A stretch of 64,000 bases of DNA, from NCBI GenBank assembly GCA_945868085.1, contig CAMBKF010000003.1, positions 33,119 through 97,118 on the forward strand, given 5' to 3'. Source of the DNA: an uncultured Oscillibacter sp. (lineage in GTDB: Bacteria > Bacillota > Clostridia > Oscillospirales > Oscillospiraceae). Of this stretch, positions 31,665 through 64,000 are shown in pieces. Every line of letters begins with the position of its first letter. Positions within the stretch are counted from its first letter, which is position 1. The notes beneath the pieces were generated by a model. That model had not been told where the DNA came from. It saw nothing but the letters and a program-made list of their open reading frames with translations, and made no database searches. The translations under genes were made by a program, and so were the position numbers.

Positions 31665-31667
31665 GAA

Positions 31668-31710
31668 AAGCACCCCCTTCCTGCTCTTGGGAAGGGGCGC
31701 TTTTTATGAA
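31668..31710 (+). terminator. Terminator at the end of the phage cassette
   Basis: agc(a)ccccttcc-tgctctt-gggaaggggcgcttttt. Confidence 0.75.
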
Positions 31711-31731
31711 GCGGGCTGGATGGCAGGGGGC

Positions 31732-31759
31732 TTGACAGGGAAACGGTTTTTGCTACAAT
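31732..31759 (+). promoter_or_regulatory. sigma-A type promoter
   Basis: TTGACA - 16 nt - TACAAT. Confidence 0.6.
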
Positions 31760-31787
31760 AGGAGCAGAACTGGGAAAGGAACGGTGT

Positions 31788-32798
31788 ATGGACGGATTTT
31801 ACTACAAAGGACTGAACCGGGAGGAAAAGTCCGCCTATGAGCAGATGCGGGCGGGATTTGAGAGCCTTGCACCCGCCATCCGGGTGACGCGGCTGGAGCC
31901 GGCGCGGCTGGCGGAGGTCTACCTGCGGCTGAAGCTGGATACGCCGCTGCTGTTTTATGTGACGGGGTACAGCTACCGGTTTTATCCCGGGGCGGGACAT
32001 GTGGAGCTGCTGCCGGAATACCTGTTTGACAGGGGGAAGATCCGCACCAATCAGCAGGCCATAGCCGCCCGCATAGAGCGGCTCACCCGGCCCCTGCGGG
32101 GAAAAAGCCAGCTGGAAAAGGAGATGGCCATCCACGACTTCATACTGGACGGCGTCCGCTATGACAAGCTGAAGAAATCCTATTCCCATGAGATCATCGG
32201 CCCCCTGACCCAGGGGGTGGGCGTGTGCGAGGGCATCGCCAAAACGGTGAAGGTGCTGTGTGACGCAGCGGGGGTGGAGTGCATCATCGCCCTCAGCGAG
32301 GCAAACCCGGAAAGAGGTGTACGCTACCGCCATACCTGGAATGTACTCACAATAGACGGAAAGCGATACCATATGGATGCCACCTTTGATAACTCCCTGC
32401 AGCGAGGCGTCCATCGGTATGACTACTTCAACCTGGATGACAGGCACATTTTCCTGGATCATGAGGCGCTGGTGCTGCCGGTGCCGGAATGCACGGAGGA
32501 CAAGGGGTATTATTACCGCTCTGTTTCCCTGACGAAAACGGAGGACGTGGCAAACCGCGTGCGCCAGGCGCTGCGAAAAAAGCAGAAGCAGTTTGTGTTC
32601 CACTGGCGTGGCGGCGGGCTGAACCGGGAGATCCTGAACGAGATTCTAGAGAAGGCTGCGGAGGAGGCAGGTAAGAAGGGCCTGCAGGTGAGCTGCGCTG
32701 TGAATGTGCGCCAGGCGGTGATCCAGCTGGATTTCGGCACGGCCCGGGAGACGGAGCTGCAGCAGCCGGACGAGGGGCAGGAGGACGCAGAGACATGA
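31788..32798 (+). CDS. transglutaminase-like domain protein
   Basis: GVCEGIAKTVKVLCDAAGVECIIAL...YRHTWNVLTIDGKRYHMDATFD (Cys-His-Asp). Confidence 0.85.
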   Translation: MDGFYYKGLNREEKSAYEQMRAGFESLAPAIRVTRLEPARLAEVYLRLKLDTPLLFYVTGYSYRFYPGAGHVELLPEYLFDRGKIRTNQQAIAARIERLTRPLRGKSQLEKEMAIHDFILDGVRYDKLKKSYSHEIIGPLTQGVGVCEGIAKTVKVLCDAAGVECIIALSEANPERGVRYRHTWNVLTIDGKRYHMDATFDNSLQRGVHRYDYFNLDDRHIFLDHEALVLPVPECTEDKGYYYRSVSLTKTEDVANRVRQALRKKQKQFVFHWRGGGLNREILNEILEKAAEEAGKKGLQVSCAVNVRQAVIQLDFGTARETELQQPDEGQEDAET

Positions 32799-46851: not shown

Positions 46852-49008
46852 TCATGCCTCCATATGCCGGCCCAAAAAGGCCGCCACGGTCTGGGCCAGT
46901 TTGTATTCGCTCTCACCGGGGAACTGCCCATCTCCGGCGGCGAACAGCACCAATCCCAGCACATCCCCCTGGCAGAGGATGGGGGCGGCGGTGAGGGCGA
47001 CAAGGTGGGCGCCGCCCTCGCATACAGGCAGGGCGGCATCGTCTTTGGCCCGCTGGTAAACGCTGCGGCCCTCCATAAGCTGCTCCATCTGCGGGGAGAG
47101 GTTGTGGCCGATGAGTTCCCGCTTGTCGGGGCCTGCGGTGGCGATGACGCTGTCCCGGTCGGTAATGGCGGCGGTAAAGTCGGAGGAGTGGGCCAGGGTG
47201 TCGCAGAACTGGGCGGCAAAATCCTCCAGCCCGCCGATGAGGGAATACTTCTTGAAAATGACCTCTCCGTCCCGGGTGGTGAAGATCTCCAGCGGGTCGC
47301 CGTCATTGATAACATTGACATCGAAAACCTTGTCCGCACGGTTTCTTGCGGACTGAATGACGGTTTTTAAGCTATTTTCGATGCCTGAATTAAAATTTGC
47401 GGCGTCCTCCAATGTTCCGCACCGGAGAAGAGCGTCAATATCTCTCTGCAGCTTGATTTCCAAATGATCTTCAAAGACCAGTACACGGTCAATGATCAGT
47501 TCCAGATCGTTGCGGTCGAGCTTCTCTTTGTTGAGGATATCGGCAAAGACATCCAGCGCCGTCTTGGCGGCACGGTTGACCTGGATGACGGTGTTGCGCT
47601 TATCGGAGAGCAGATCGATCTGATGGTTCAGACCGTCGATTTTTTTCTGCAATTCGTCCTCCAACTCGTCGTAGGTGGCTTCGATCTCAGCCTCCCTTTC
47701 CGGCTTTTTCATGATCTCCCGGATGCGCTGGCGCTTGGTGACCTTCATTTCCTCCACCAGCTCGTCCAGCACCTGGGCCAGATGGTCGGCGGACTGCTCG
47801 GTTTCGGCAATGTCGTCATTCTCATGGGCAAGATCGCGGTTAAGCTGTTCAATCATGGCAGCAGAGTTTTCCATCAGCTTCTGCACATAGCTTTTCAGCA
47901 GATCGTCCAGCCTGTCCACACGGATGTGATGGCTGGTGCAGCCTTTGAGCCCTCTGCGATGATAGGTGCCGCAGGTGTAAGCAGGCTTCAGATCGCTGCG
48001 GCTCATGGCGAACATGGGACTTCCGCAATCGCCGCATTCCAGAAAACCGGAATACACATTATCGTTGATTTTGACACCACGATAGTTGGAACGAGTACGC
48101 TTTTCCCGCAGCGCGCGGGTGGTGGCAAAGGTGCGGTAGTCGATGATGGGCTGATGGTGGTTCTCAATGACGATCTGCTCACCATCGTCCCGGCGCACAT
48201 CCTTGCCGTTGATCTTGGCACGGGTATACTTGCCCTGCCGAAGCGTTCCAATATAGAAATCGTTGTCCAGAATCCCCTGCACGGTGACAATGGCCCACGC
48301 CGCCTTGACCTGACGCTTGTATTCCTGACCGTCAGCCTCCTTGCGCATCTGCTCGGACATACGAGGAGTCGGAATGCCCTGATCGGTCAGATAGTTTGCG
48401 ATCTTCTTATAACCCCAGCCGTCTTTGTTGTAGAGTTCAAAAATCTTGCGGACAATCTCTGCTTCCGTGGGGACGATCTCAAATTCCCTGCGTTTGTTGA
48501 TGATATAGCCATAGGGAGCGGCACACAGCCATTCGCCGTCCGCCTGACGGCGACGGATGACATTGCGCACTTTTTTGGATGTGTCGGTAACGGGCATCTC
48601 ATTGATGAGGAACTGAAACTGGATTTTCAGCCAGTCATCATCATTAGGGAAATCGATCCCGTCACCAATGGAGATAATGCGTACTCCGGCATCACGAAGG
48701 TCTTCCAATTCCACAAGGCCACGGCTGTTGCGGCGGGAGAAGCGGGAAAAGTCTTTTACAATCAGAATGTCGTATTTGTGAGACATCAGTCCCCGGCGCA
48801 TTTCCTGATAGCCCTCACGCTGTTCAAAGGTGTAGCCGGAACGGTCACGGTCCTCAAAAAAGGTCAGGGAGCTGCCGGGAAATCGGGTTTTTACGAAGTC
48901 CTGAATGATAGCTTTCTGGTTTTCAATGGAGACATTATCCCGATCAAGCTCGTCATCCACGGAAATACGGGCATAGCCCGCGATGTCAAAAATCTCGGTC
49001 ATAGTCAT
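46852..49008 (-). CDS. large serine recombinase fused in frame to the SpoVT C-terminal region
   Basis: N-term AGYARISVDDELDRDNVSIENQK, VKDFSRFSRRNSRGL, recombinase zinc domain; from NDGDPLEIFTTRDGEVIFKKYSLIGGLEDFA onward matches recalled SpoVT (REGDPLEIFxDRDGEVIxKKYSPI...). Confidence 0.92.
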   Translation of the reverse strand: MTMTEIFDIAGYARISVDDELDRDNVSIENQKAIIQDFVKTRFPGSSLTFFEDRDRSGYTFEQREGYQEMRRGLMSHKYDILIVKDFSRFSRRNSRGLVELEDLRDAGVRIISIGDGIDFPNDDDWLKIQFQFLINEMPVTDTSKKVRNVIRRRQADGEWLCAAPYGYIINKRREFEIVPTEAEIVRKIFELYNKDGWGYKKIANYLTDQGIPTPRMSEQMRKEADGQEYKRQVKAAWAIVTVQGILDNDFYIGTLRQGKYTRAKINGKDVRRDDGEQIVIENHHQPIIDYRTFATTRALREKRTRSNYRGVKINDNVYSGFLECGDCGSPMFAMSRSDLKPAYTCGTYHRRGLKGCTSHHIRVDRLDDLLKSYVQKLMENSAAMIEQLNRDLAHENDDIAETEQSADHLAQVLDELVEEMKVTKRQRIREIMKKPEREAEIEATYDELEDELQKKIDGLNHQIDLLSDKRNTVIQVNRAAKTALDVFADILNKEKLDRNDLELIIDRVLVFEDHLEIKLQRDIDALLRCGTLEDAANFNSGIENSLKTVIQSARNRADKVFDVNVINDGDPLEIFTTRDGEVIFKKYSLIGGLEDFAAQFCDTLAHSSDFTAAITDRDSVIATAGPDKRELIGHNLSPQMEQLMEGRSVYQRAKDDAALPVCEGGAHLVALTAAPILCQGDVLGLVLFAAGDGQFPGESEYKLAQTVAAFLGRHMEA

Positions 49009-50021
49009 TCCCCTTTGAGATATTTCGCGGTCTGACGGTCAAACTCGGAGATATATTCCGCATCCTGTTTCTTGCGGAATTCCGAATAAATCCCGCTGAC
49101 CTTTTTGACCGCCGCGTCGTGAGAAATGGATCCCTTGCCGTCCAGCACATTCCGGCGGTTGTTCTGCAAAAAGCGATCTGTCTCGTTGAGCCAGTCCTGC
49201 ATGGACATGAGCTGCTCGTCCTCCGCCATCAGCTCGGCGTAGTCGATGAACATGGTGACCAGGCGGTTCAGACGGGAGATCTCTTTTTCGTTCAGGTAGT
49301 TCTTTGCCACCAGCGTGTCGCTTTTCAGAATTTTTCCATCGGGCGCACCCTTCCAGGTGGTCAGACCCATGGTGGGGCTGTCCAGGGTGGCACGTTCCGC
49401 GATCAGTTCCGCCGCCGTCTTTCCTGTTACGGCAAAGTGCAGCTTGTTCTGCACAAACGCATAGAAGGCTTTCGTGGTGTCGCTGTTCTTGTCGTAATCG
49501 TAGCTGCACTGCTCAAACACATCAGCAATCTTCTGGTAAGCCCGGCGCTCGCTGGCACGGATCTCACGAATGCGCTCCAGCAGCTCATCGAAGTAATCCT
49601 TGCCGAAGGGGCGGCCATTCTTCATCATTTCATCGTTGAGGACAAAGCCCTTCTGGATATATTCTTTCAGCGTCTTAGTGGCCCATTGGCGGAAGCGAGT
49701 AGCTTTCTTGGAGTTTACACGATAGCCTACGGCGATGATGGCATCAAGATTGTAATGGTCAATCGTTCTGTTTACGGTTCTTGTGCCCTCTTTTCGAACT
49801 ACCGAGAATTTCTCGGTAGTTGCGTTTTGCTCCAGTTCGCCCTCTGCGTAGATGTTTTTCAGATGAAGAGAGACATTATCAGTAGTACAGCCGAACAGCT
49901 CTGCCATACCGCTTTGCGTCAGCCAAAAGTTCTCATTATAAAACACCACATTGACGAATTCCTTTTCCGTATCGTTCTGATACAGCAGAATGTCGCCGTT
50001 TTTCATGATTTCGTTGCTCAT
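49005..50021 (-). CDS. RhuM family protein
   Basis: NFWLTQSGMAELFGCTTDNVSLHLKNIYAEGEL, TVNRTIDHYNLDAIIAVGYRVNSKKATRFRQWATKTLKEYIQKGF; ATGA overlap with the recombinase start. Confidence 0.9.
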   Translation of the reverse strand: MSNEIMKNGDILLYQNDTEKEFVNVVFYNENFWLTQSGMAELFGCTTDNVSLHLKNIYAEGELEQNATTEKFSVVRKEGTRTVNRTIDHYNLDAIIAVGYRVNSKKATRFRQWATKTLKEYIQKGFVLNDEMMKNGRPFGKDYFDELLERIREIRASERRAYQKIADVFEQCSYDYDKNSDTTKAFYAFVQNKLHFAVTGKTAAELIAERATLDSPTMGLTTWKGAPDGKILKSDTLVAKNYLNEKEISRLNRLVTMFIDYAELMAEDEQLMSMQDWLNETDRFLQNNRRNVLDGKGSISHDAAVKKVSGIYSEFRKKQDAEYISEFDRQTAKYLKGE

Positions 50022-50150
50022 AGATACCCTCCTTGCGAAGTTATCTCTTTAATTTTCTTGTTTGCAGATAACATTGTATCATATGATTGTGAACAGTTCA
50101 AGATAAAGAGAGAAAAATGGCGGAAGAGATTCCTCCCTCCCGCCTGTATC

Positions 50151-50414
50151 TCATCGTCCGGCTGCTGCCGTGCGCTGTTTCTTCTCCCGCTGAACCTCCA
50201 GTTCGGCGCAGCGGCGTTTATTATAAGCAAGTAAATCCAGTGTGCCCTGATACAGATCCTTTTCGCCGGATTCAAATACAGCCACCAGATACTTTTTCTT
50301 CTTATACTTGTCATAGATGTCTTTCAGCCCCTCACGCAGAGCGAGGTCTTTCTTTTCGGCGTTTGTCAGCCAGATTTCGACCAACTGCCTGTCATCTCTG
50401 ACGTTCATCTCCAA
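50151..50414 (-). CDS. small mobile-element protein, unknown
   Basis: 87-aa ORF between RhuM and Mob genes. Confidence 0.55.
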   Translation of the reverse strand: MEMNVRDDRQLVEIWLTNAEKKDLALREGLKDIYDKYKKKKYLVAVFESGEKDLYQGTLDLLAYNKRRCAELEVQREKKQRTAAAGR

Positions 50415-50448
50415 ACAACATCACACTCCTTCATTGGTTTTATTTTCC

Positions 50449-51396
50449 TCATCTTTCCTGCGGTTTATGCGCGATTACCTTTTTTGCCGCCTGTAGAATT
50501 TCCGGCGGCAGAACTTCCACGGTGCAGCGAAGCTCGTCCAGTTCGTTGAGCTTGCGCTGCGTCTCCAGTTTCTTTTGGATGCTTTCCCTGGATGCGGAAG
50601 AAAGTTTCTTTTCCAGTTCAGCATTTTCCTCGGTCAGCTCTTTGTACGTCTTGTCGTACTTTTTCAGCTTCGTCCGCATGACCTCCACGCCGGGGATGTA
50701 CTTGTCCAGCAGCGCTTCCAGTTCTTCTGCCTTGGCCTTTTTGTTGAACGGATTGCTGTCGTTCAGAATCGCCATGATCTGATCCTTCATTCGGTTCAGA
50801 TGTACAGCCTCTTTGAACAGCCTCGGCGGGATGTGGGTACGTCCGGTTTCGCTGGCACTTTCGCCACGTTCCAGATCGGGATACTTCTTGACCATGTGCT
50901 TCCAGAACTCGTCCTGCCACCAGGTCAGCTTTTTCTTGTTGCCCACGATCTCCTTGGCACTTAGCCGTTTGTCCTCCGTCAACGGGATAAAACAAAGGTG
51001 CATATGGGGTGTTTTCTCGTCCATATGCACCACGGCAGATATGATCGTCTCTTTCGACTGATATTTTTGAATGAAGCTCAGTGCTTCGGTGAAATAGGCT
51101 TTGACTTCGGCTTTCTTTTTGCCCTTGAAAAACTCCGGGCTGGCAGTAACCAGAGCCTCCACCACCCGAACACTGTCGGAACGGGTACGGCAGCCTGCCT
51201 CGGCGATCTGCTTTTCGGCCTCCGCACGGTATTTCCGTTCCGGTGTTACCAGATGGAAGTTGAGATGGCTGCGGGATGTATCCACATCGGGATTGCTGGC
51301 GTATTTCTCTTTCGTGCGCTCGTTGTGGGATTCAATGTGACCGATTTCCGGCCCCTTATACTTGGCAAAGCGGAGAATGGCGTACTGTGCTTTCAT
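50449..51396 (-). CDS. MobV/Pre family relaxase
   Basis: YAILRFAKYKGPEIGHIESHNERTKEKYASNPDVD; VVHMDEKTPHMHLCFIPLTEDKRLSAKEI. Confidence 0.9.
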   Translation of the reverse strand: MKAQYAILRFAKYKGPEIGHIESHNERTKEKYASNPDVDTSRSHLNFHLVTPERKYRAEAEKQIAEAGCRTRSDSVRVVEALVTASPEFFKGKKKAEVKAYFTEALSFIQKYQSKETIISAVVHMDEKTPHMHLCFIPLTEDKRLSAKEIVGNKKKLTWWQDEFWKHMVKKYPDLERGESASETGRTHIPPRLFKEAVHLNRMKDQIMAILNDSNPFNKKAKAEELEALLDKYIPGVEVMRTKLKKYDKTYKELTEENAELEKKLSSASRESIQKKLETQRKLNELDELRCTVEVLPPEILQAAKKVIAHKPQER

Positions 51397-51608
51397 TACT
51401 TGCTCCTCCTCTGCCACACGATGTCATATCCAAGCACATCGGCCAGCTCCACGACTTCCTTGTATCGGATGCTCTCCCGCTGCAGCTTGGCGGAAAGATT
51501 GGAAACGCTGTCGCTCCAATCATATTCATCGGCCAGCCTGTCCACCAGCTCCTGCATGGTGAAACCGGCACGGATAATCTGTGCCTTGATCTCGTTTCTG
51601 ATATTCAT
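51396..51608 (-). CDS. HTH-type regulator
   Basis: MNIRNEIKAQIIRAGFTMQELVDRLADEYDWSDSVSNLSAKLQRESIRYKEVVELADVLGYDI; stop/start overlap with relaxase. Confidence 0.75.
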   Translation of the reverse strand: MNIRNEIKAQIIRAGFTMQELVDRLADEYDWSDSVSNLSAKLQRESIRYKEVVELADVLGYDIVWQRRSK

Positions 51609-51885
51609 ATTCTTCCTCCTGACTTTTAGTAATGAAAACAGCGAAGCCGATGCACGCTTTGGCAAACCAGCTTCGCTGTGTGGTGAACTGTTCGGTTGTT
51701 TGCTAATTCGCTCAGATTTGGCGGCATGATGTTTTGTCCACAAGTGGGCATATCGGACTTTACGAAACCGTGTGGCATTTCATAAAACCGTGCAGATGCA
51801 CACTTTTCAGGAACGCCGGTGCTCGATTCGGAGAAGCGCGATTCCGTGAAATCATTTCGCTCTGCAGAAAAAATCTTTCCTGTTT

Positions 51886-52092
51886 TCATCTGTCTTGAAG
51901 ATACCCCTGCTTTTTCAGCTCCTTCAGATCAAGAATCACGTCTTCTGTGGGTTGCTTGGCAAGGCAGCCGAGAGTATAAATGTCGTAGGTGTCATCGATC
52001 AGAAGCAGCGTCATCAATAGTTTCTGACTTCCGGTCAGGTCGCTGTCATAGATATGAAACAGCGGCAGTTCCTTGTAATACGGTTTCTTCAT
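51886..52092 (-). CDS. small protein, possible winged-helix
   Basis: 68-aa ORF with RBS upstream. Confidence 0.5.
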   Translation of the reverse strand: MKKPYYKELPLFHIYDSDLTGSQKLLMTLLLIDDTYDIYTLGCLAKQPTEDVILDLKELKKQGYLQDR

Positions 52093-52198
52093 TAAATTCC
52101 CCCTTTAGTCATTGAATTTGAAAATATCCATCCCATCCACCCATCTATCCCACGTGGTATGCTTGGGATGGATGGGATGGTGCTTTTTCTGCTTGATC

Positions 52199-53509
52199 TC
52201 ATAAAATAGGCGGTGTCACCAAAGCTTCGATACCCCAGAAGCCGTTGACACGTTTGCCGAGGCGGTTGGTAATGTGGTTGTCATGCTCGATACCAAATTC
52301 ATCTGCGTGCTTTTTCAGTGTCATGCCCACTGTCCGCACCGCCAGCGGCTTATAGGTGTTGTCATTGCACCACATGGTATAAATGGCGTAAAGGTCAGCG
52401 GAAGTGATAGTGCTTTCGGCTTTCAGTCGGATGTATCCCTCCGAGCGCATGAACAGCAGCACATTATCCGCCTCTCGCTTGGCTTCTACACGGTTATCCT
52501 TAGTACGGTCACTTTCAGTGAAGCGGTAGTTGTTTCCGATCAGCCTTTTCAGACCTTCTAGGCACCAGAGGAAGATACCCTCGATCTCGGCACAGAGCTT
52601 GTCCGCAAGAAAAGGATCGTCCTCACGGTCAAGAGGCTTCCTCTTCACCGACAAAATCAGCTGTCTGCGGTAGAAACCGTCCGAATGATCGTAAAGCGAT
52701 TCCAGATCGCCGTTGGAAAAGGCCAGAAAGCGGACATACATTTCTCCCTGATAGCTCTGCTCTCCCTTTCGCTCCAAATCCATGGGCATTTCGGCGGTGA
52801 TAAGAGACTTCAGATAGTGAGTGGATTTTAACGCCTCCATTTTCATGTCATCGTCCACCATCAGAAGCTGATGCTCCAGATCGGCTCTGGCGAAGGGGCT
52901 GCGCTCCACCTTGGCAATACTGCCGTTTTTCAGGTTGTCGCCCAGCATCTTCTGCATCACCACACCAATGCGGCTTTTGCCCTCGCCGCCGTTGCCCTTC
53001 AGCAGCATCATGGTCTGCCCTCTATTGGTGGGGATCAGGCAGTAGCCCAGGTACTCCTGCAGGGTCAGGATATCCTCATCCTCCAGAAGTTCCGATAAAA
53101 AATGCAGCCATGTTACAGGCTGCGGAGCGTTGGCCTTATAGTTGACCGGCAGACGGTTGCGGCAGAACTCCTTGCTTTCGGTGAACTCGCCGTTCAGGAA
53201 CAGCGTGCCGTTGGCAACATGAAGTCGATCTTCGTGTACCGGCAGATTGGGAACATAGGCTTCCAGTTTGAGCATTTCCAGAAGTCCCGATGCCCGTTTG
53301 GCGAGGCCACAGTTGAGATAGGGTCGGAGCATTTCATAGATTTCCTTGCGGACACTTTCTTCGTCGGTGATACGACCTTCCTTGGTGAAGAAGCAGCCGC
53401 CCACACGCACCATCGGATGCTGCTGCAAAAAGTCCTCGCAGAACCCGACTTCGTTTACCGATTTGCCGTCATACCAAAAAGGCCTTTCAGCGGTTTCAGA
53501 TTTGCTCAT
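52199..53509 (-). CDS. phage/plasmid primase-helicase (P4/D5-like C-terminal)
   Basis: MMLLKGNGGEGKSRIGVVMQKMLGDN Walker A, HQLLMVDDDMKMEALKSTHYLKSLITAEMPMDLERKGEQSYQG. Confidence 0.88.
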   Translation of the reverse strand: MSKSETAERPFWYDGKSVNEVGFCEDFLQQHPMVRVGGCFFTKEGRITDEESVRKEIYEMLRPYLNCGLAKRASGLLEMLKLEAYVPNLPVHEDRLHVANGTLFLNGEFTESKEFCRNRLPVNYKANAPQPVTWLHFLSELLEDEDILTLQEYLGYCLIPTNRGQTMMLLKGNGGEGKSRIGVVMQKMLGDNLKNGSIAKVERSPFARADLEHQLLMVDDDMKMEALKSTHYLKSLITAEMPMDLERKGEQSYQGEMYVRFLAFSNGDLESLYDHSDGFYRRQLILSVKRKPLDREDDPFLADKLCAEIEGIFLWCLEGLKRLIGNNYRFTESDRTKDNRVEAKREADNVLLFMRSEGYIRLKAESTITSADLYAIYTMWCNDNTYKPLAVRTVGMTLKKHADEFGIEHDNHITNRLGKRVNGFWGIEALVTPPIL

Positions 53510-54116
53510 TTGACTCCTCCTTGATTCGTTTTACCCGCTCCTGCAGGTAGGTGATTTGGCCGTCTTTCAATAAATTCTTTATCACATCCTCTCTTTCTTC
53601 CGACGTTCCTTCTGTCAGCAGCTCCACCGAAAACTTGACATATTCAAGCATATGGCAGGCTTCTGCGAACCGTGGATCTGGTTCGGCGTCCGGTGACTGC
53701 GGTGCGCAGTCTGTCATCCAGCCTTCGAGAATGCGCAGATAATCACTCAACACCCGAAAGCACAACCGCTCGTTCTCAGCCTGTGTCCTGTGTCGGTTCA
53801 GCTTGGCAAGTACGGACGGCTTCCCGGTTTGAATGCCGAAGTCGGCACTTAACTTTTGCGCGGCCTCCAAAGCGGTGATTCCGAACAACCTGGATGTGAA
53901 TTCGATCACATCTCCTTTGGCACCGCAGCCGAAGCAGTAGAAGTAGTCCTCATTTAGCTTCATGCTGGGGTGTCCGTCATCATGGAATGGACAGCAAACC
54001 ATACCGTTTCGGCTGATGCTCAGCCCGAAGTGTTCTGCTGCCATCCTCGGCGTGACCGTGGATTTGACAGCTTCAAAAATTGTCATAGGCATTTCTCCTT
54101 TCGATTTTTCCGACAA
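53496..54116 (-). CDS. CHC2 zinc-finger DNA primase
   Basis: AAEHFGLSISRNGMVCCPFHDDGHPSMKLNEDYFYCFGCGAKGDVIEFTSRLFG. Confidence 0.9.
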   Translation of the reverse strand: MSEKSKGEMPMTIFEAVKSTVTPRMAAEHFGLSISRNGMVCCPFHDDGHPSMKLNEDYFYCFGCGAKGDVIEFTSRLFGITALEAAQKLSADFGIQTGKPSVLAKLNRHRTQAENERLCFRVLSDYLRILEGWMTDCAPQSPDAEPDPRFAEACHMLEYVKFSVELLTEGTSEEREDVIKNLLKDGQITYLQERVKRIKEESNEQI

Positions 54117-54239
54117 AGTTTCTTTGTCAACTGAATATACGGAGAAATAGTCTTAGACCATAAAAATCAGGCAGATGTGCAAGAAAACAAAAAAGCCCTC
54201 CCGAATTCTTGCAAAAATGCAAGCCGGAAGGGCGGATTC

Positions 54240-54482
54240 ATAAAAATGTGATGTGTAGGAGCAAAACGCGCTATAATAATGTGATATTACTGCTTGCCAA
54301 ATTTGAAAGTTCACCTTGTGAGTGAATATTCATCCTGATAGAGTGAAAATCCGGAAAGGAATCAATAAAAATGTGATTCCGTTATCATAACAGCCAATTT
54401 TTTTGTGATACCGTTGCTATTTCGGCCTGAGGAGCGTATAATAATAGTGTGAAATCAAACGCAAGATCTCCAAGAAAAGTGT
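54240..54482 (+). repeat. Iterated AAAAATGTGAT/TATAATAAT(A)GTGTGA motifs upstream of the DUF4143 ATPase
   Basis: Motif instances near 54242, 54274, 54367, 54403, 54438 and 54474. Confidence 0.6.
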
Positions 54483-54496
54483 GACGGAGGGATTCT

Positions 54497-55834
54497 ATGG
54501 AACGACTGATCCTGGAACGACTGCTGGAATGGAAAAACTCACCTTACCGCAAGCCACTGATTCTCAAAGGAGTACGGCAGGTAGGCAAGACGTGGATTCT
54601 CAAGGAATTCGGCAGACGTTATTATGATAATACAGCCTATTTTAACTTCGATGAACACGAGGAGTATAAGCAGTTCTTTGAAACGACCAAGGACGTTGAC
54701 CGGCTTCTGCAAAATCTGATGCTGGCCAGCGGACAGAAGATCACACCGGAAAAGACACTCATCATTTTTGACGAAGTGCAGGACTGCCCGAAAGTCATCA
54801 ACTCCATGAAATATTTCTGCGAAAATGCGCCGCAGTATCACATTGCCTGCGCCGGTTCGCTGCTGGGCATTGCCCTGGCAAAGCCGTCCTCTTTCCCGGT
54901 TGGTAAGGTCAACTTCATGCAGATCGATCCCATGACGTTTACGGAGTTTTTGCTGTCCAACGGGGATGAGAATCTCGCAAAATATCTGGATGCTGTGGAT
55001 ACGCTTGAACCGCTCCCGGATGCTTTTTTCAATCCGCTGTATGAGAAGCTCAAAATGTACTATGTCACGGGTGGAATGCCGGAATCTGTGCTCATGTGGA
55101 CGCAGGCGCGCGACGTGGAGGCCATGCAGGAGGCTCTGTCCGGAATTATCGGCGCATATGAGCGCGACTTTGCCAAACATCCGAATGTCAGCGAATTCCC
55201 GAAAATCTCAATGATCTGGAAGTCTGTTCCGTCGCAGCTTGCCCGGGAAAATAAAAAGTTTATCTATAAGGTCGTCAAAGAGGGCGCGCGGGCGCGTGAG
55301 TATGAGGATGCGCTGCAATGGCTGGTGGATGCCCGGCTTGTCCACAAGGTATACCGCAGCACCGCGCCGGGACTTCCGATGTCGGCCTATGACGATCTGT
55401 CGGCGTTCAAAATCTATCTGGTGGATGTGGGATTGCTCCGCCGTCTGGCGCAGCTTGCACCGACTGCTTTTGGTGAGGGCAATCGTCTGTTTACCGAGTT
55501 CAAAGGAGCGTTGACAGAAAACTATGTGCTGCAAACGCTCATCACACAATTTGAGGTGATGCCCCGTTATTGGAGCCAGAACAATCCTCCCTATGAGGTC
55601 GATTTCCTGATTCAGCGCGAAAATGATATTTTCCCGGTGGAGGTCAAGGCAGAAGCCAATACCACCAGCCGGAGTCTGCGAAAATTCAAAGAGCTGTTCC
55701 CGGGGCAGGTAAAGCTCCGCGTGCGCTTCTCCCTGGACAATCTGAAGCTGGATGATGATGTGCTGAACATTCCGCTGTTCATGGCAGATCAGGCAGACCG
55801 GCTGATCGGGCTGGCGCTGGAGAAGAGGGGGTAA
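54497..55834 (+). CDS. ATP-binding protein (AAA_14 plus DUF4143)
   Basis: PLILKGVRQVGKTWILKEFG, LIIFDEVQDCPKVINSMKYF, ENYVLQTLI...YWSQNNPPYEVDFLIQRENDIFPVEVKA. Confidence 0.9.
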   Translation: MERLILERLLEWKNSPYRKPLILKGVRQVGKTWILKEFGRRYYDNTAYFNFDEHEEYKQFFETTKDVDRLLQNLMLASGQKITPEKTLIIFDEVQDCPKVINSMKYFCENAPQYHIACAGSLLGIALAKPSSFPVGKVNFMQIDPMTFTEFLLSNGDENLAKYLDAVDTLEPLPDAFFNPLYEKLKMYYVTGGMPESVLMWTQARDVEAMQEALSGIIGAYERDFAKHPNVSEFPKISMIWKSVPSQLARENKKFIYKVVKEGARAREYEDALQWLVDARLVHKVYRSTAPGLPMSAYDDLSAFKIYLVDVGLLRRLAQLAPTAFGEGNRLFTEFKGALTENYVLQTLITQFEVMPRYWSQNNPPYEVDFLIQRENDIFPVEVKAEANTTSRSLRKFKELFPGQVKLRVRFSLDNLKLDDDVLNIPLFMADQADRLIGLALEKRG

Positions 55835-55847
55835 AGGAGAGTATACT

Positions 55848-56678
55848 ATGGCCATCAGTAAAAAACTTGAAATTATATATCACAATGGTCAGCCGGATGG
55901 TATTCGTTCTATCCGCCGTCACCTGTCTACAATGACTACCTATGTCATCCCTCGTCCGTTGCTTTCAGAAGCCAAGAAACTGACAGGTATCAATCGTCCA
56001 GGCATCTATTATCTGATCAGCGAAACGGATGATAACAAGATTGCCCAGATCTATGTTGGGCAGACCCGAAACGGAGTCAGCAGATTGGATGACCACAATC
56101 GTTCAAAAGATTTCTGGAACAAAGCAATCATGTTCCTTGCTGACAACAAGACCTTTTCTCTGGACATGATCAGCGGTCTTGAGGCTTTTGCCATCGGTAA
56201 GGCAATTGAAGCGAAGCGCTACAAAGTTGAAAACACGGTGAATCCCAAATACGAGATTGATGAATATGATCTTCCTTTGATTGAGGAAGTGTATGAAGAA
56301 ATCAAATTCATCATGGCAACCCAGGGGTATAAAATGGAGAACTCCAAAACAACTCTGAATGAAGCCAACACATTGCATACGACCCGAAATGGCGTCCAGG
56401 CACTTGGCGTCTATGATGGTGAGAAATTTGAAGTCCTTGAAGGGTCAGAAATTGATATGAGCCGCAAGTGCCACTCCGACAATATTGAGAAGCTTCGGCA
56501 AACCGCCATTGAAAACGGGAACATAGTTTGCAGCGGGGATAAACATATCCTGAATGTTTCTGTTCCGTTTACTTCTCCCAGCTCGGCAGCAATGTTTGTG
56601 CTTGGTGGAAGCACCAACGGATGGATCGAATGGAAAAACAAAGACGGCAAAACGCTTGATGAAATGTACCGAAAATAA
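55848..56678 (+). CDS. GIY-YIG nuclease plus DUF4357 domain protein
   Basis: RPGIYYLISETDDNKIAQIYVGQTRNGVSRLDDH; C-term FTSPSSAAMFVLGGSTNGWIEWKNKDGKTLDE. Confidence 0.88.
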   Translation: MAISKKLEIIYHNGQPDGIRSIRRHLSTMTTYVIPRPLLSEAKKLTGINRPGIYYLISETDDNKIAQIYVGQTRNGVSRLDDHNRSKDFWNKAIMFLADNKTFSLDMISGLEAFAIGKAIEAKRYKVENTVNPKYEIDEYDLPLIEEVYEEIKFIMATQGYKMENSKTTLNEANTLHTTRNGVQALGVYDGEKFEVLEGSEIDMSRKCHSDNIEKLRQTAIENGNIVCSGDKHILNVSVPFTSPSSAAMFVLGGSTNGWIEWKNKDGKTLDEMYRK

Positions 56679-56719
56679 CAGCGGTTAATCCAATGCTGAA
56701 AAGCGAGGAGGTGTGGTGA

Positions 56720-57526
56720 ATGAGCAACGAGAGTGTATATCTTCCCGGTAATATCCGTGACCGCATACAGGACTTGATGAAATCACACAAGGTCACACAG
56801 GCTGAACTTGCCACACGGATAGGTTGTTCGGAAAGTGCGCTGAGCCGTTTCATCAGCGGCAAGACGGACAAGCTGGGCGATGAAAATATTATTCGCATTG
56901 CCCGTGTGTTCAATGTCTCCACCGATTTTCTGCTTGGCGAGGTCGATATTCCCGACCGTCTGAATTACGATATTTCCGAGCTTGGCCTGTCGGTACAGGC
57001 AGCGAGAAATCTGTACACCCATAAGGTGAATCCGCAGGTGGTCAATGCGCTGCTTGAAAATCCGGAATTTTCCAACACCACAAATCTGATCTCCGGTTAC
57101 TTAGATGACGAACTCGCCAAAGGCTTTGCGGCACAAAACCAACTGTACGCAACAGTCGCCGGTATGCTGAGGGGCCAGCCTGACGCTGTCGATGACATAA
57201 AGAAATTGCAGACCCCAGTATATCAGGCAGACTTGACGGCGATCCAGCGGTCATTTATGGCTGCGGTTCAGGCAGTCAAGAAAGAGATCGGCAATGATCT
57301 GTCTGCCACCCGTGAACTGACATCACAGGCGGTGAAAAAGATTTATGCCGAACTGACAAAGGGGCAGAAAAAGCCAAGCCGCAAAATTACCCCGGAGCAA
57401 ATCGGAGAGGCGGTGGCACAATCTGTTTCCCATTTGCCCGGCATTGATACAGAAGCGGTCAAGCGGATGTTCCTTGCAATGACCGGTACGGTAAAGAACA
57501 ATGAAAAGAGATCCAATGACCAATGA
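56720..57526 (+). CDS. XRE-type helix-turn-helix protein
   Basis: IQDLMKSHKVTQAELATRIGCSESALSRFISGKTDKLGDENIIRIARVFNVSTDFLLGE. Confidence 0.88.
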   Translation: MSNESVYLPGNIRDRIQDLMKSHKVTQAELATRIGCSESALSRFISGKTDKLGDENIIRIARVFNVSTDFLLGEVDIPDRLNYDISELGLSVQAARNLYTHKVNPQVVNALLENPEFSNTTNLISGYLDDELAKGFAAQNQLYATVAGMLRGQPDAVDDIKKLQTPVYQADLTAIQRSFMAAVQAVKKEIGNDLSATRELTSQAVKKIYAELTKGQKKPSRKITPEQIGEAVAQSVSHLPGIDTEAVKRMFLAMTGTVKNNEKRSNDQ

Positions 57527-58145
57527 ACAGCTCTGTGCGTTGGCCAAGCAGGCCGATGCTGATGCACAGAATCTGTTGATTGAAAACAATCTTCGATTCA
57601 TCAAAAAGACGGCGTACGAGGTGTGGAGTGCACAAGCCGAGCTGAACCGATCTCTGCAAATCTCACTTGACGATCTTGTGCAGGAAGGCTCGTTGGGGTT
57701 GTTCGGCTGCATCGACAGCTACAATCCCGACAGCGGGAATCTGTTCCTGACTTACGCTGCTCCTGCGATACGGAACGCCATGATCGACTACATCCGTTCG
57801 CAGAATGTGTCTTTCGAGGCAAAGCATTTGAACGACATCGTTTCGCTGGATGATTTCGCAAAAGACGAGGTTCGGAGCAAGCATAATTTTATTGCTGATC
57901 CCACCAAGCAAACGCCGGAACAAATCTATCTGGCACAGGAACGGATTGATGATCTCCATCACGCTTTGTACATGATTGAGGACAGAGAGGAACAGTATCT
58001 GCGTTACCGCTTTGGATTTGACGAAGACACGGAGCATCCGCTGATGGAAACAGCGAAGCATTTTCATTTGTCTGAAAGCCGAGCGAAAAAGACGGAGGCT
58101 CTTGCTCTGGATAACGTGTGGTTGGAACTGCCATGGTGGTATTAA
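57501..58145 (+). CDS. sigma-70 family RNA polymerase sigma factor (element-borne)
   Basis: LLIENNLRFIKKTAYEVWS...DLVQEGSLGLFGCIDSYNPDSGNLFLTYAAPAIRNAMIDYIR. Confidence 0.88.
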   Translation: MKRDPMTNEQLCALAKQADADAQNLLIENNLRFIKKTAYEVWSAQAELNRSLQISLDDLVQEGSLGLFGCIDSYNPDSGNLFLTYAAPAIRNAMIDYIRSQNVSFEAKHLNDIVSLDDFAKDEVRSKHNFIADPTKQTPEQIYLAQERIDDLHHALYMIEDREEQYLRYRFGFDEDTEHPLMETAKHFHLSESRAKKTEALALDNVWLELPWWY

Positions 58146-58674
58146 GGTACGGGGACGCGTCGCTGCGGCGGGCTTTATATACCTCTTGCTCCCCCGGTGA
58201 TGCAGCACAGCTTCGGTCGCAGACCTACGCTTTGCCGCACCACCTACACCCGAACAGTCGGATTTTGCTCATGGCAAATTCCTGGTTTTGTGTCCGTTCC
58301 TGCCACAAAATCCGCCTGTTCTGCTGCCACAGGAAACGGTCTGTCCGGCGTGGGACAGCCCCTTTCCGGCGTCAGCGGTCGCAAAAGGTATAACACACTA
58401 GACTTTGCCGAGCAAAATCGTGTGCCAACAGAGTGCTGCTCGCCCCTATTGGAAACCCAGAGCCAAAGGGATTGCATCCCTCTGGACACCTGCAATTTTC
58501 TTCACACGATGGTACCCAAACTGTAAAAATGCAGTTTGCCACCGGTGCGAAGAAAATGCAAAAGGAAGCATCTGCGCCAGGATCGCGAAAGCGCAAATCT
58601 TTCTTCTTGTGCTGATAATCTGAAACTAAATATGGCGCGATTTCAAATTATCAGCATCTGCTGCGGCAGAGAAT

Positions 58675-60201
58675 ATGAAAACGACCTTGGAGGATTTTGA
58701 TATGATTACAGGCGAAATGAAAAATAAAGTTGATTCCATTTGGGATACGATATGGACAGGCGGTATCACAAGCCCCATTACTGTTCTGGAGCAGATCACC
58801 TACCTGATGTTCATGAAGCTGTTGGATGATAATCAGTTGAAGGCTGAAGCCAATGCCAACCTGCTTGGCGTTCCGCTGAAGAACAAAGTATTTCAGGACG
58901 GCATGTGTGTGATCAGCGAGAATCCCCGGGTGGAAACGGAATACAAAAATCTCCGTTGGAATGTATTCCATAACTTTGAACCCGGCGAAATGCTGACCAA
59001 TATCCAGACCTATGTGTTCCCGTTCATCAAGACCATCGGCGAAGGCAAGGACACCGCTTTCAGCCGCTACATGAATGACACTGTGTTCCTGATTCCCACA
59101 GCAAAAGTGCTCGCCAAGGTTGTGGATGGCATTGACGCCATGGACATGAATAACAAGGACATCATGGGCGATGTCTATGAGTATCTGCTAGGGAAAATTG
59201 CCGCTGCCGGTGAGAACGGCCAGTTCCGCACCCCTCGCCATATCATCAATATGATGGTGGAACTGATGCAGCCCACGCTCAAGGATTCCATCCTTGACCC
59301 TGCTATGGGCTCTGCCGGTTTTCTGTTGTCCAGTGCAGCCTATATCAACGAGCATCAGAAAAAGGAACTGATGAAAACCGAGAATATGCGCTATTTCAAA
59401 TCCGGCCTGTTCTCCGGTTTCGACACTGACCAATCCATGCTGCGGATTGGCGCAATGAACATGATGCTCCACGGTGTGGAAGATCCGCACATCACCTATC
59501 AAGATTCCCTATCCTGCGAGAACACCGAACGGGATCAGTATTCTCTCATCATGGCGAACCCGCCCTTTACCGGCAGCGTCTTCCAGGAGGAAATCAGCAA
59601 AGACCTGCTGGGACTGTGTAAGACAAGGAAAACCGAGCTGCTCTTTGTTGCTCTGTTTACGAAGATGCTGAAGGTTGGTGGTCGCTGCGCCTGCATCGTC
59701 CCCGATGGCGTGCTCTTTGGTTCCTCCAAGGCACATCAGGCAATCCGGCGTGAATTGGTGGATAATCAACAGTTGCAGGCTGTGATTTCCATGCCTTCCG
59801 GTGTATTCAAGCCTTATGCGGGAGTGTCCACGGCGATTTTGGTTTTCACCAAGACCAATGCTGGCGGTACGGAGAAGGTCTGGTTCTATGACATGAAGGC
59901 CGACGGCTACAGTCTGGATGATAAGCGCTCTGAAATCAAAGAGAATGATATTCCGGATATCATTGCCCGGTTCCATAATCGTGAGGCAGAGGCCGACCGG
60001 GAGCGTACCGAGCAGAGCTTCTTCGTGCCGAAGCAGGAAATCGTAGATAATGGGTACGATCTTTCCATTAACAAGTACAAGAAGGTCGAGTACAAAGCGG
60101 TTGAGTATCCATCCACGCTTGAAATCATGACCAATCTGCGTGAATTGGAGATGCAAATCGGTCAAACGATGGACGAGCTTGAAAAACTGTTAGGACTATA
60201 A
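58675..60201 (+). CDS. hsdM: type I restriction-modification system methyltransferase subunit
   Basis: GQFRTPRHIINMMVELMQPTLKDSILDPAMGSAGFL, LIMANPPFTGSVFQEE (NPPF). Confidence 0.94.
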   Translation: MKTTLEDFDMITGEMKNKVDSIWDTIWTGGITSPITVLEQITYLMFMKLLDDNQLKAEANANLLGVPLKNKVFQDGMCVISENPRVETEYKNLRWNVFHNFEPGEMLTNIQTYVFPFIKTIGEGKDTAFSRYMNDTVFLIPTAKVLAKVVDGIDAMDMNNKDIMGDVYEYLLGKIAAAGENGQFRTPRHIINMMVELMQPTLKDSILDPAMGSAGFLLSSAAYINEHQKKELMKTENMRYFKSGLFSGFDTDQSMLRIGAMNMMLHGVEDPHITYQDSLSCENTERDQYSLIMANPPFTGSVFQEEISKDLLGLCKTRKTELLFVALFTKMLKVGGRCACIVPDGVLFGSSKAHQAIRRELVDNQQLQAVISMPSGVFKPYAGVSTAILVFTKTNAGGTEKVWFYDMKADGYSLDDKRSEIKENDIPDIIARFHNREAEADRERTEQSFFVPKQEIVDNGYDLSINKYKKVEYKAVEYPSTLEIMTNLRELEMQIGQTMDELEKLLGL

Positions 60202-60218
60202 ATTCGGATTAGTAATAT

Positions 60219-60246
60219 ATAAGCGAAGGTGTTACAGCCTTCGCTT
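60219..60246 (+). terminator. Hairpin after hsdM
   Basis: gcgaagg-tgttacag-ccttcgc tttt. Confidence 0.65.
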
Positions 60247-60448
60247 TTCCTTTATGATGAAGGTGATTGGCTGACGGAATTTCCGATTGGGACCCCACGC
60301 CCGCCGACAAATGTGTCAGCCAGCCTTCATCATTCTGCATTCGATTCAGCAAGTTGGGACAAATTATTGCTCCCGTTTCACGGACTAATCTGATTGAATC
60401 TTGAAGTGCTGGAACCAATCGTATCTCAACTTACGAAGGAGGAGTTTC

Positions 60449-61174
60449 ATGATCGCAGTTGGAATCGACATATCCAAAGCCAAGAGCACCGTTGCGGTGA
60501 TTGATTCAGACGGTACAGTTCTGGCAAGTCCATTCACAATGGCTCATACGCAGCCGGAGATGGATGCTTTCGTGACATATCTGAAGGGACTTGGAGAACC
60601 CACAACCATTCTCATGGAGTATACTGGCCACTACCATTATCCGGTGCTCAAGAAGCTTCAAGACGAGGGATTTCCCGTTTGCATCGTTAATCCATACCAG
60701 ATGAAAAAATACGGGGATGTCGAGATTCATAAGGCGAAGACGGACAAGAAGGATGCGCTTCGGATAGCGGCCTATGCACTTGAAAAATCCTACAAACTCG
60801 TACCGTATAGCTCAATGGAGCAAAAGTATGAGGACTTGAAATTCCTTTCCCGCCAATACAACCAACGTATCTCTTATGTTGCAAAGCTGAAGGTTCAGCT
60901 CATATCTCTGTTGGATCAAACGATGCCTGGAATTACAAAAATACTGCCATTGAACAGCAGAAGTCCCGAAAAATGTGCGTTGCTGCTCTTTATCAAACGA
61001 TTCAAGTCCTTTGATGAGATTCAGCGAATTGGAAAGGCTCGGTTCCTGGCGTCCTATGATGTCTTAGCGAAAAAGGCCTTAGAACGCAGCGCATCCAGCA
61101 AGGGCCTCAGTATCTACGAACTCGCTGTTGACAGCATTATCGCCTTTGATGCTGGCGAGAAAAAGTTTCCGTAA
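60449..61174 (+). pseudogene. IS110 family transposase, N-terminal part only
   Basis: MIAVGIDISKAKSTVAVIDSDG, MEYTGHYHYPVLKKL, KTDKKDALRIAAYA (DEDD domain); C-terminal Tnp_20 domain absent. Confidence 0.88.
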
Positions 61175-61354
61175 GCCTCTTTTGAACCACTCGCCCAGCG
61201 AGTGGTTTTCGGTATGCAAAAAAAGAGCTGCCACGGCAGCTCTTTTTTGCGGTGAAAATTGAATTGTCGGAAATGAAGCGCTTCCTTCCGGCGGTTTTCC
61301 CTGCTCACAGTATTTCCTCATCGTCCCATTTGCCCTCTGCAAGACCGATACGGG

Positions 61355-61552
61355 GGTGCGGACAAAATCTTGGACTATGCAGATAGGCCGAGTTTTTGTC
61401 TATACTCCAGCGGACTAAGTCCACCAAGAGAAATCTTAATTCGCTTTTCCCGATACCAAACCATATAATCTTCGACTGTATGAATGAACTCCTCTATTGA
61501 AACGTTTAGCCATGAAACCCCATAAAACATCTCGTTCTTCATTCGCCCAAAG
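61355..61552 (-). pseudogene. IS3 family transposase C-terminal remnant
   Basis: minus strand FFGRMKNEMFYGVSWLNVSIEEFIHTVEDYMVWYREKRIKISLGGLSPLEYRQKLGLSA. Confidence 0.87.
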
Positions 61553-62664
61553 AAACACTGAATGAACTGCTGGAGCAGGAAGCGGAGAAACTGACCCAGG
61601 CTGCCCGTTACGAGCGGAATGAGGCCCGCCAGGGCTACCGCAGCGGCCACTATGACCGGAACCTTACCACTACCTCGGGAGACGTGACGCTCCATGTTCC
61701 TCGCCTTAAGGGCGTCTCTTTCGAGACCGCTATCATCGAGCGGTATCGCCGCAGGGAAAGCAGCGTAGAAGAAGCCCTCATCGAGATGTACCTTGCCGGC
61801 GTCTCCGTACGCCGTGTGGAGGACATTACCGAGGCCCTGTGGGGCAGCAAAGTATCTCCAGCCACCATCAGTGAACTGAACAAGAAGGCCTATGTCCACA
61901 TTGAGGATTGGCGTAACCGTCCTTTGCAGGGCGGCAAGTATCCGTATGTCTATGTGGACGGCATCTACCTGCGGCGCAACTGGGGCGGAGAGTACGAAAA
62001 TGTTGCAATTCTGGTGGCAATCGCGGTAAACGAGGATGGATACCGCGAGGTTTTGGGCGCGGCCGAGGGCATGAAAGAGGACAAGGCCAGCTGGGTGAAT
62101 TTCTTTCAGTGGCTCAAAAGCAGAGGATTGGACGGCGTAAAGCTCATTGTTGGCGATAAGTGTCTGGGGATGCTGGAAGCCGTAGGAGAAGTATTTCCTG
62201 ATGCCAAATACCAGCGCTGTACAGTGCATTTTTACCGCAATATATTTTCCGTCGTTCCTCGATCTAAGGTAAAGCTGGTGGCTAAGATGCTCAAGGCAAT
62301 CCATGCTCAGGAGAGCAAAAAAGCCTCCCGCGAGAAAGCCAAAGCTGTGGTTGCAGAACTGAGAGCGATGAAGCTGAAGGAGGCCGCCAAGAAGGTGGAG
62401 GACGGTGTTGAGGAAACGCTGACCTACTGCGACTTTCCCAGCGAGCACTGGACCCGGATCCGCACCAACAATGTGATTGAACGGTTGAACCGTGAGATCC
62501 GCCGCAGGACCCGGGTGGTGGGGACCTTCCCGGACGGCAACTCCGCTCTGATGCTGGTCTGCGCCCGGCTGCGCCATGTGGCTGGCACCCAGTGGGGCAA
62601 CAAAAAGTACATGAATATGAAGCACTTAGAGGCGACTCCGGAAGACGCCTCTATTGCCGGCTGA
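61552..62664 (+). mobile_element. IS256 family transposase, probably 5' truncated
   Basis: NELLEQEAEKLTQAARYERNEARQGYRSGHYDRNL..., GVSVRRVEDITEALWG, YVYVDGIYLRRNWGG, NVIERLNREIRRRTRVVGTFPDGNSALML. Confidence 0.9.
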
Positions 62665-62666
62665 AT

Positions 62667-63998
62667 TCATTCAGCCAGAGTCTGCAAATGAATTTGCGCA
62701 TAACTCTTGACAGTACCGTTTCTCCAGTTCCCCATGGGCTGAGGATTTGCCCAGGTAGAGCGCATAAGCCAACGGGGAAGCTTGCCTAGGAACAGTGCCA
62801 GCGCCAGCAGGTCGGCACTGCCGCCGGGACTGAGCCACCGGTCGATGAGCGCCTCGTCCAGCGCCTGTGTCAGCGCGACGCGCTGCTCCGGCGGAGCCTG
62901 CAGGATGGCGGCGGCTTGCTGTTTCACAAAGGCTGCGCCATCTGCGCCCCCGCGATGATAGAGATTGGAGTCCTCTGTATGCGCCATCAGCCATAAAAGT
63001 ACGGTCAGAGGATCGCTGTGTTTCAGCAGCGCGGCGGCCTCGCGTACTGTGGGGAAGCCCGCCATTGCCTCGGCTCGTGCCCCGCCCACCTGATATCGTT
63101 CGGCTACCGCTGTACCATTGGTATGCTTCGGTGGTGCCAGTTGTGCGGTAATAGCGGCAGCGTGGGAAAAAACATCCCCGCCCGTACTTAACGAGCGGCC
63201 CAGTGCCGAAAGCAGCACGGAAAAAGAAAACAAAGCCCCTTTATGGGTGTTGACACCGCCGGTAGCGCGGAACATGACGGCTTCCGCTTTTATGCCCAGC
63301 GCTTGTAGTTGTGCAGCGTCTGCGCCCATCAGTCCCAGCATTGTCAATTGTCGGAAATACGGCGTCAATACGTCAATGCTGCGCAGGAACAGCGGCAGAT
63401 CCATGTCGCTGTGCGCACCGGTATTGCGCTGATCCACCAGCCCCGGTTTAGGCGTCAGGCGCACCTCCTGCTCCAGCGCTTTTGCTGCGAGGGATGCAAG
63501 ATATCCGGCGGCGAAGTCCGTCAATATTTCAACGGTGCGGGCGATGATGGCCTCCAGACCGTGGGCGCGACTGCGGGAACAGGCCGTTACCGGCGCCCCG
63601 CAGATGAGACAGGTGCGCTGGCAGGGACGAGACAGCTTCTTACCATCCACGTCCAGCACATCGAGATCATACAGCCGTCCCACGGGTGCGGCAGTTTCCA
63701 ACGCTAAACATGCGGCCTTCAATTCCGTCGCCGGACGGTCATAGACCAGCAGCGCTTCACAGCCGGTATGGGGATAGATAACCTCCGCAGTGATGGGCTG
63801 TCCGAGGGCGGCGCACAACTCTTTCAGTCCGGCGTCAAAGGCCAGTTCAACCAAAGGCGTGCGTTTTACCGGACCGGCGATATTCATGGTAAAGGACACC
63901 AGCGGCAGGTGATGTACGTTTAGCAGTCGTTGTTGGGACGCTGCGCGGGTATCACGGGCGCAGAGGATCTCCTCCAAAGTGACGTTGACAATAGACAT
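62667..63998 (-). CDS. citXG: CitX-CitG fusion (apo-citrate lyase phosphoribosyl-dephospho-CoA transferase / triphosphoribosyl-dephospho-CoA synthase), C-terminus probably altered by IS256
   Basis: VTLEEILCARDTRAASQQRLL (CitX start); LTPKPGLVDQRNTGAHSDMDLPLFLRSI, ATGGVNTHKGALFSFSVLLSALG (CitG). Confidence 0.88.
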   Translation of the reverse strand: MSIVNVTLEEILCARDTRAASQQRLLNVHHLPLVSFTMNIAGPVKRTPLVELAFDAGLKELCAALGQPITAEVIYPHTGCEALLVYDRPATELKAACLALETAAPVGRLYDLDVLDVDGKKLSRPCQRTCLICGAPVTACSRSRAHGLEAIIARTVEILTDFAAGYLASLAAKALEQEVRLTPKPGLVDQRNTGAHSDMDLPLFLRSIDVLTPYFRQLTMLGLMGADAAQLQALGIKAEAVMFRATGGVNTHKGALFSFSVLLSALGRSLSTGGDVFSHAAAITAQLAPPKHTNGTAVAERYQVGGARAEAMAGFPTVREAAALLKHSDPLTVLLWLMAHTEDSNLYHRGGADGAAFVKQQAAAILQAPPEQRVALTQALDEALIDRWLSPGGSADLLALALFLGKLPRWLMRSTWANPQPMGNWRNGTVKSYAQIHLQTLAE

Positions 63999-64000
63999 AG

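Follow-up and report, generated by a model that had tools for sequence, protein, structure and literature searches.

Large serine recombinases fused in frame to SpoVT point to a family of integrative elements targeting one codon of spoVT in Oscillospirales

Several mobile elements are known to intervene in sporulation genes, namely skin in sigK, SPbeta in spsM and vfbin in spoVFB. A second group of related systems are the integrative mobilisable elements (IMEs) of the Tn4451/TnpX type, which carry a large serine recombinase, a short core and a Mob relaxase and reside in clostridial hosts. Further sporulation genes are interrupted by gin (gerE; PMC5595907) and yin (yabG; PMC10747680), and for the known cases of this kind the mother cell is the compartment of action (PMC5595907, PMC4191935, PMC5025042, PMC10747680). 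SpoVT is a forespore product under sigma-G in B. subtilis and B. cereus, and it is essential in the latter (PMC5061766). Recombination sites inside coding genes have also been described. The 'suicidal' integrases of the SSV type, which a review of archaeal integrases restricts to archaea (PMC8371274), are tyrosine recombinases with the site inside their own gene. In mycobacteriophage BPs attP lies inside the repressor gene and integration alters the C-terminus of the product (PMC4557955). Moreover, engineered fusions of integrases with RDFs alter directionality (PMC5737554). Searches of open-access full texts of published papers for spoVT, sporulation-gene insertions and insertion sites brought up no report of an element in spoVT.

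The locus described here lies in a window of 64,000 nucleotides, which is the whole stretch of DNA that was analysed. The minus-strand open reading frame at 46852..49008 encodes 718 amino acids and joins a large serine recombinase to the C-terminal half of SpoVT in the same frame, the joint being codon 32 of spoVT. Residues 1 to ~569 constitute a complete large serine recombinase, and the remainder corresponds to SpoVT, beginning at the GDP motif and extending to the C-terminal end. Pfam detected the Resolvase, Recombinase and Zn_ribbon_recom domains in the fusion and matched the SpoVT_C model end to end (residues 594-717, E=8e-33). Residues 567-717 were matched by TIGR02851 and aligned with the PDB chain of B. 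subtilis SpoVT (2w1t), starting at SpoVT residue 28; the reading frame is as the initial annotation described it. The break point interrupts the N-terminal domain, which is of the AbrB type and covers residues 1-53 in 2ro5. Among PDB sequences, the recombinase part matched best to YokA (SprA) of SPbeta (9dxh, E=2e-23) and to a YokA-YotN fusion, and it also matched TnpX (2mhc).

In detail, the C-half of spoVT occupies 46852..47298 on the minus strand. It runs from codon 32, the Asp of GDP, to the stop, comprises the rest of the AbrB domain and the GAF domain (SpoVT_C), as assigned by Pfam, 2w1t and TIGR02851, and is translated as the C-terminal end of the recombinase protein. The view that the recombinase takes the host gene as its own 3' end is borne out by this in-frame joint. 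The recombinase itself (Resolvase, Recombinase and Zn ribbon; 47299..49008, minus strand; Pfam and PDB matches) is present in its integrated form without its own tail; its catalytic domains are whole according to Pfam, and they are of the serine and not the tyrosine type. The attachment site attL spans 47280..47325 (minus strand) and consists of the element arm TGTCAATGTTATCAATGACGG, the crossover CGAC with its GA at 47298-47297, and then spoVT sequence.

As claimed initially, the SpoVT N-terminus is missing from the window. The orphan N-terminus and a matching core were sought throughout the same genome (G000, a 1.96 Mb draft in 60 contigs) and both were found on contig C15. There, the N-half (G000:C15:8665..8549, minus strand) reads MKATGIVRRIDDLGRVVIPKEIRRTMRIREGDP, ending in MRIREGDP, and is followed by 27 foreign codons, SQMTLTRWERFCFAMLDLSRRWGLDCT, and a stop; the core is at C15:8572. 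A second intact spoVT was looked for and none was found in this genome, the sole other match being a short AbrB-like gene on contig C9. The window's contig, C3, runs out within citXG (62667..63998, minus strand) at the very end of the window, citXG being the 3' part of a citrate-lyase operon that crosses the contig end, and C15 opens inside citE/citD (L004:2-614, minus strand). Both contig ends thus fall in a single citrate-lyase operon, which lacks citF at the remaining gap between C3 and C15, and across this gap the minus-strand order is N-half, element and recombinase-C-half, as an insertion requires. The element thus extends over 47298..64000 (minus strand) in the window, resumes at base 1 of C15 and runs up to the attR core, beyond which lies the N-half; its size is at least 25 kb. 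The proposal of an element sitting at one codon of spoVT is upheld, with the N-half at its other end.

The C-half is located at the orthologous spoVT locus, whose conserved neighbours TPM, TelA and 40752 also come after spoVT in G080 and in Vescimonas fastidiosa; in the genome under study TPM and TelA come after spoVT with three extra genes in between. Another genome of the same genus (G036) has an intact spoVT near TelA. The neighbour on the N-side, a YkvI-like transporter, showed no conservation among the genomes compared. A draft of 60 contigs with the N-half on a separate contig could suggest an assembly chimera. This reading deserves practically no credence, since dozens of genomes share the fusion, among them the isolates Pseudoflavonifractor sp. 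An85 and P. capillosus An386a and two genomes assembled as one contig each (G078, halves 40 kb apart; G129, halves 15 kb apart), and these single-contig genomes exclude the assembly error that the initial annotation had named as a possible refutation.

The attachment sites were also rebuilt. Rejoining attL to C15:8572 yields a near-palindromic attP, and attP sites rebuilt in this way from the element ends were palindromic in all 11 genomes having both ends. An example is CCAATGTTATCTGTGACGG-CGAC-CCGTCACAGACAACATTGG, which has GA at its centre and falls within the coding sequence of the recombinase; the attB in spoVT reads CGYATCCGCGAGGG-CGAC-CCGCTGGAGAT. Because of the attP symmetry, we infer strand exchange at precisely the GA dinucleotide of the Asp codon in GDP. 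The recombinase frame crosses attP into ~26 more codons (consensus DPSQTTLxxWQxFCFAMLDLAKRxGW-stop), which after integration stay behind on the SpoVT N-half. Entropies at codon positions 1, 2 and 3 of this tail were 1.14, 0.91 and 1.41, so that variation peaks at the third position and is lowest at the second, and all but one of 89 tails (88 of 89) retain a particular Arg despite changing codons. By eye, a terminator-type hairpin follows the tail in several attR sequences. The frame through attP, the coding-like evolution and the hairpin suggest that the recombinase gene natively ends in this tail. Since attP lies inside the recombinase gene, integration swaps the 3' ends of recombinase and spoVT: the recombinase gains the SpoVT GAF domain and the SpoVT N-half gains the ~26-codon tail.

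To see the distribution of this arrangement, other genomes were searched for recombinase-SpoVT chimeras. In a first survey of 121 genomes, sixteen additional fusions were found, their frames open over 719-818 amino acids, and orphan N-halves were seen as well. Among 401 genomes of the family, the in-frame fusion was present in 63 (~16%, about one in six), a count made up of 54 cases with checked sequence, G120, and eight cases in which the contig starts 44-181 bp before the junction. One more fusion, in G151, contains stop codons, and G494 is a similarly degenerate case. About a dozen additional fusions were found in other families of the same order. Recurrence in 63 of 401 genomes, always at the same codon, rules out a chance fusion. 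The N-half with its tail was recovered in 40 of 56 fused genomes; it was not found in the other 16, seven of which are at least 97% complete, and for this reason the split of spoVT may be permanent in some hosts. In 13 genomes N-half, element and C-half lie on one contig in the right order, 10-40 kb apart; the only same-contig exception is G031, with the halves in reversed order. When GTDB as a whole was scanned with the right half of attP, 69 loci were obtained, all of them attR in spoVT; named records came from Flavonifractor sp. An306, Pseudoflavonifractor sp. An85, P. capillosus An386a and Ruminococcaceae bacterium P7. Intact and interrupted spoVT both occur within one genus.

The divergence of the two fused parts was almost uncorrelated (pairwise identity of recombinase versus SpoVT C-half, Spearman 0.08 over 1326 pairs). 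For example, G095 and G135 are 94% identical in the recombinase and 51% in SpoVT, and in G181 and G392 the values are 56% and 92%. This indicates that the insertions are independent and argues for a mobile, IME/ICE-like family and not for a skin-like relic; together with the intact genomes of the same genus, it rules out an ancestral element inherited with the host. The near-uncorrelated divergences likewise point to horizontal spread, as is demanded of an IME. Altogether, we consider it highly probable that the present element is a member of a site-specific integrative family of ~10-40 kb targeting spoVT codon 32 in Oscillospirales. The TnpX/SprA-type large serine recombinase would recombine the spoVT attB with the palindromic attP, which appears to sit ~26 codons before the recombinase's own stop. 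The free circle would then encode the recombinase with its native tail, excision is predicted to restore both genes exactly, and mobilisation could occur in trans via the MobV relaxase.

Among the genes of the element, the MobV relaxase speaks for such a mobile family. Next to the recombinase, a RhuM-family protein is encoded at 49005..50021 (minus strand; Pfam PF13310, E=7e-107), its stop overlapping the recombinase start. It is followed by a MobV-family relaxase at 50449..51417 (minus strand; Pfam Mob_Pre, and NCBIfam NF041497 above cut-off) and by replication genes at 52199..54116 (minus strand), with a P4-type primase/helicase C-terminal domain at 52199-53509 and a CHC2 zinc-finger primase at 53496-54116. 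On the plus strand, 54497..60201 holds cargo consisting of an AAA_14/DUF4143 ATPase, a GIY-YIG/DUF4357 protein, an HTH regulator, a sigma-70-like factor and an HsdM methylase, and 60401..62664 holds insertion sequences (IS110-type, 60401-61174; Mutator/IS256-type transposase, 61684-62664). The element also bears the citrate-lyase/TctA operon. Large serine recombinase and MobV relaxase are both in the annotated part; another part of the element falls in the assembly gap and the domain searches covered some of the open reading frames, so a full conjugation system could have escaped notice. In a comparison of 13 elements, the recombinase alone was widely shared and the cargo varied. Clustering across elements recovered no conserved RDF, with a crude calling of open reading frames that sometimes assigned the wrong strand. 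A small TnpW-like open reading frame beside the element's own attR had no relative at other loci.

Like elements of the skin/SPbeta type, the spoVT element encodes its own site-specific serine recombinase and interrupts a sporulation gene at an att core, with one half of the gene at each end of the element; attP and attB can be rebuilt, and exact restoration of the gene is predicted on excision. The recombinase is moreover related to SprA/YokA of SPbeta. The spoVT elements differ in the in-frame joining of recombinase and host gene, in the position of attP within the recombinase's own reading frame, and in that their insertions are independent across dozens of genera. A further difference is that skin, SPbeta and gin interrupt mother-cell genes, whereas spoVT, going by B. 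subtilis and B. cereus, is a forespore gene. With Tn4451/TnpX they share the large serine recombinase (2mhc match), the short core, the Mob relaxase and the clostridial hosts, but the spoVT elements, unlike these, always enter the same codon of one gene. Their features resemble those of both a sporulation-gene-intervening element and an IME, and their membership in the developmental class is putative. SSV-type integrases likewise recombine at a site within their own gene, so that integration cuts it; there, however, the catalytic gene is split, whereas the spoVT element exchanges only the C-terminal tail of a serine recombinase and leaves the catalytic part whole. In BPs the affected gene is a repressor, and here it is a recombinase gaining a host domain. 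Two features set the spoVT elements apart: an attP within a bacterial serine-recombinase gene, and a putative state-dependent C-terminus with a logic akin to the BPs repressor.

What these insertions mean for the host depends on whether SpoVT is restored. A programmed switch, with excision in sporulating cells (in the forespore) restoring SpoVT as in skin/sigK and SPbeta/spsM, would be compatible with a target that is a sporulation regulator dispensable for vegetative growth, with a reading frame that excision would rebuild exactly, and with a recombinase whose top PDB-sequence matches are YokA and YokA-YotN. Carriers also keep spoIVA about as often (38 of 40) as non-carriers (34 of 36). In the pair G232/G393, where dS values of 0.53 for the recombinase and 0.59 for SpoVT suggest an inherited insertion, the fused C-half has a dN/dS of 0.14; dN/dS is 0.04 in G135/G195 and G241/G314, where the dS values agree less well. 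Purifying selection on the C-half could equally serve the recombinase, however, and the insertions are independent rather than ancestral. The 16 carriers of 56 without a detected N-half also count against a switch. Since SpoVT acts in the forespore (PMC5061766), excision there would leave the germ line without the element, barring re-integration. No sporulation promoter was seen upstream of the recombinase: none of 35 upstream regions matched a sigE/F/G consensus, a weak test in which the positive control, the region upstream of spoVT, showed sigG in only 9%. Overall, a programmed switch seems unlikely to us.

A plain selfish insertion, with spoVT as a safe harbour and SpoVT function lost or tolerated in carriers, would explain the patchy distribution, the intact relatives of the same genus, the independent insertions, the absence of the N-half from some near-complete genomes and the degenerate copies with stop codons in G151 and G494. 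Yet B. cereus needs spoVT to complete sporulation (PMC5061766), and nearly all carriers keep the C-half open and the tail under coding constraint. Besides, intact spoVT genes were found beside element remnants, which suggests that SpoVT loss is costly. In V. fastidiosa MM35 (L224, pMM35_01) an orphan N-half with tail, annotated as an AbrB/MazE/SpoVT protein, is followed after 12 kb by an intact spoVT, and a direct repeat of 1.1 kb (93%) is present. G080 (L048) has three N-half remnants and then an intact spoVT, and G295 (L252) has an intact spoVT and, 15.7 kb further, an attL-like C-half; direct repeats of flanking sequence accompany the orphan half and the intact gene at all three loci. Selfish insertion is thus a serious candidate with slightly less than an even chance of being correct. 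The plain disruption offered as one option by the initial annotation undersells the locus, given the retained spoIVA, the purifying selection on the fused C-half and the intact spoVT beside remnants in several lineages.

A further reading, which we regard as quite improbable, is that the tail swap is itself a state switch. The circle-encoded recombinase with its native, probably helical tail would favour integration, and the GAF-bearing form would be kept inactive or made excision-competent by the signal that SpoVT senses, coupling excision and SpoVT to forespore development. By analogy, one may speculate on a natural C-terminal partner that changes the directionality of its own recombinase. 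Because engineered integrase-RDF fusions change directionality (PMC5737554), the natural C-terminal exchange is directly testable. If this state-switch reading were true, a bacterial recombinase would encode directionality by cutting its own gene.

Returning to the integrative family, spoVT represents a new and common target among sporulation-gene-intervening elements, and a target acting in the forespore conflicts with the usual pattern in which such elements are discarded in the mother cell only. The att site inside the recombinase gene provides a bacterial serine-recombinase example of a design that has been ascribed to archaeal tyrosine integrases only (PMC8371274). The insertions, in ~16% of the sampled family genomes, also bear on which gut Oscillospirales form functional spores.

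Additional observations were made around the attachment sites. An excised attP was found neither among the 401 family genomes, where the single match was an attR, nor at the 69 GTDB loci or in pattern scans of IMG/VR; a fecal virome record (MT839487) ends just at the attP left arm, and a sequence that was attP-like at first (G264:C98) is actually a degenerate end. Contigs of several genomes break at the att core; populations with both excised and integrated forms could explain this, as could a mixture of strains or recombinase sequence present in repeats, and the breaks are not counted as proof of excision. At 43 of 86 attR loci, the element carries a 20-bp copy of the attB left half-site (ACCRTGCRYATCCGCGAGGG), located +109 to +120 bp inward of the core and at a fixed distance past the tail stop (own copy at ~L004:8462-8443, minus strand); matches of 17/20 or better were seen at 50% of loci versus 0.2% of shuffles. 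A corresponding mimic of attB-right within the recombinase gene was tested and was unconvincing.

Other sequences showed related or different arrangements. A human fecal record labelled Bacteriophage sp. (L225, MT836658.1) carries a divergent 716-aa recombinase-SpoVT fusion with a recombinase 53% identical, and in G561 a recombinase with the attP left arm has unrelated end codons, so it is probably inserted elsewhere. The N-half motif RRTMRIREG varies to RRRQRRREG in L155 (two tandem copies) and to RRTQRRREG in L186. In the window, a run of phage-like structural open reading frames (terminase-, portal-, capsid- and tail-like by eye) at ~18463-32798 on the plus strand is apparently a separate prophage-like region. 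Finally, a second element type with tandem serine-recombinase genes (L132, L133, L136, L162 and L201) ends at spoVT codons 11-12 (...TTGACATAAnnGACGACCTG), upstream of the codon-32 insertion, which gives two distinct sites in spoVT; a matching break after MKATGIVRRIDD was seen in G053 (L039).
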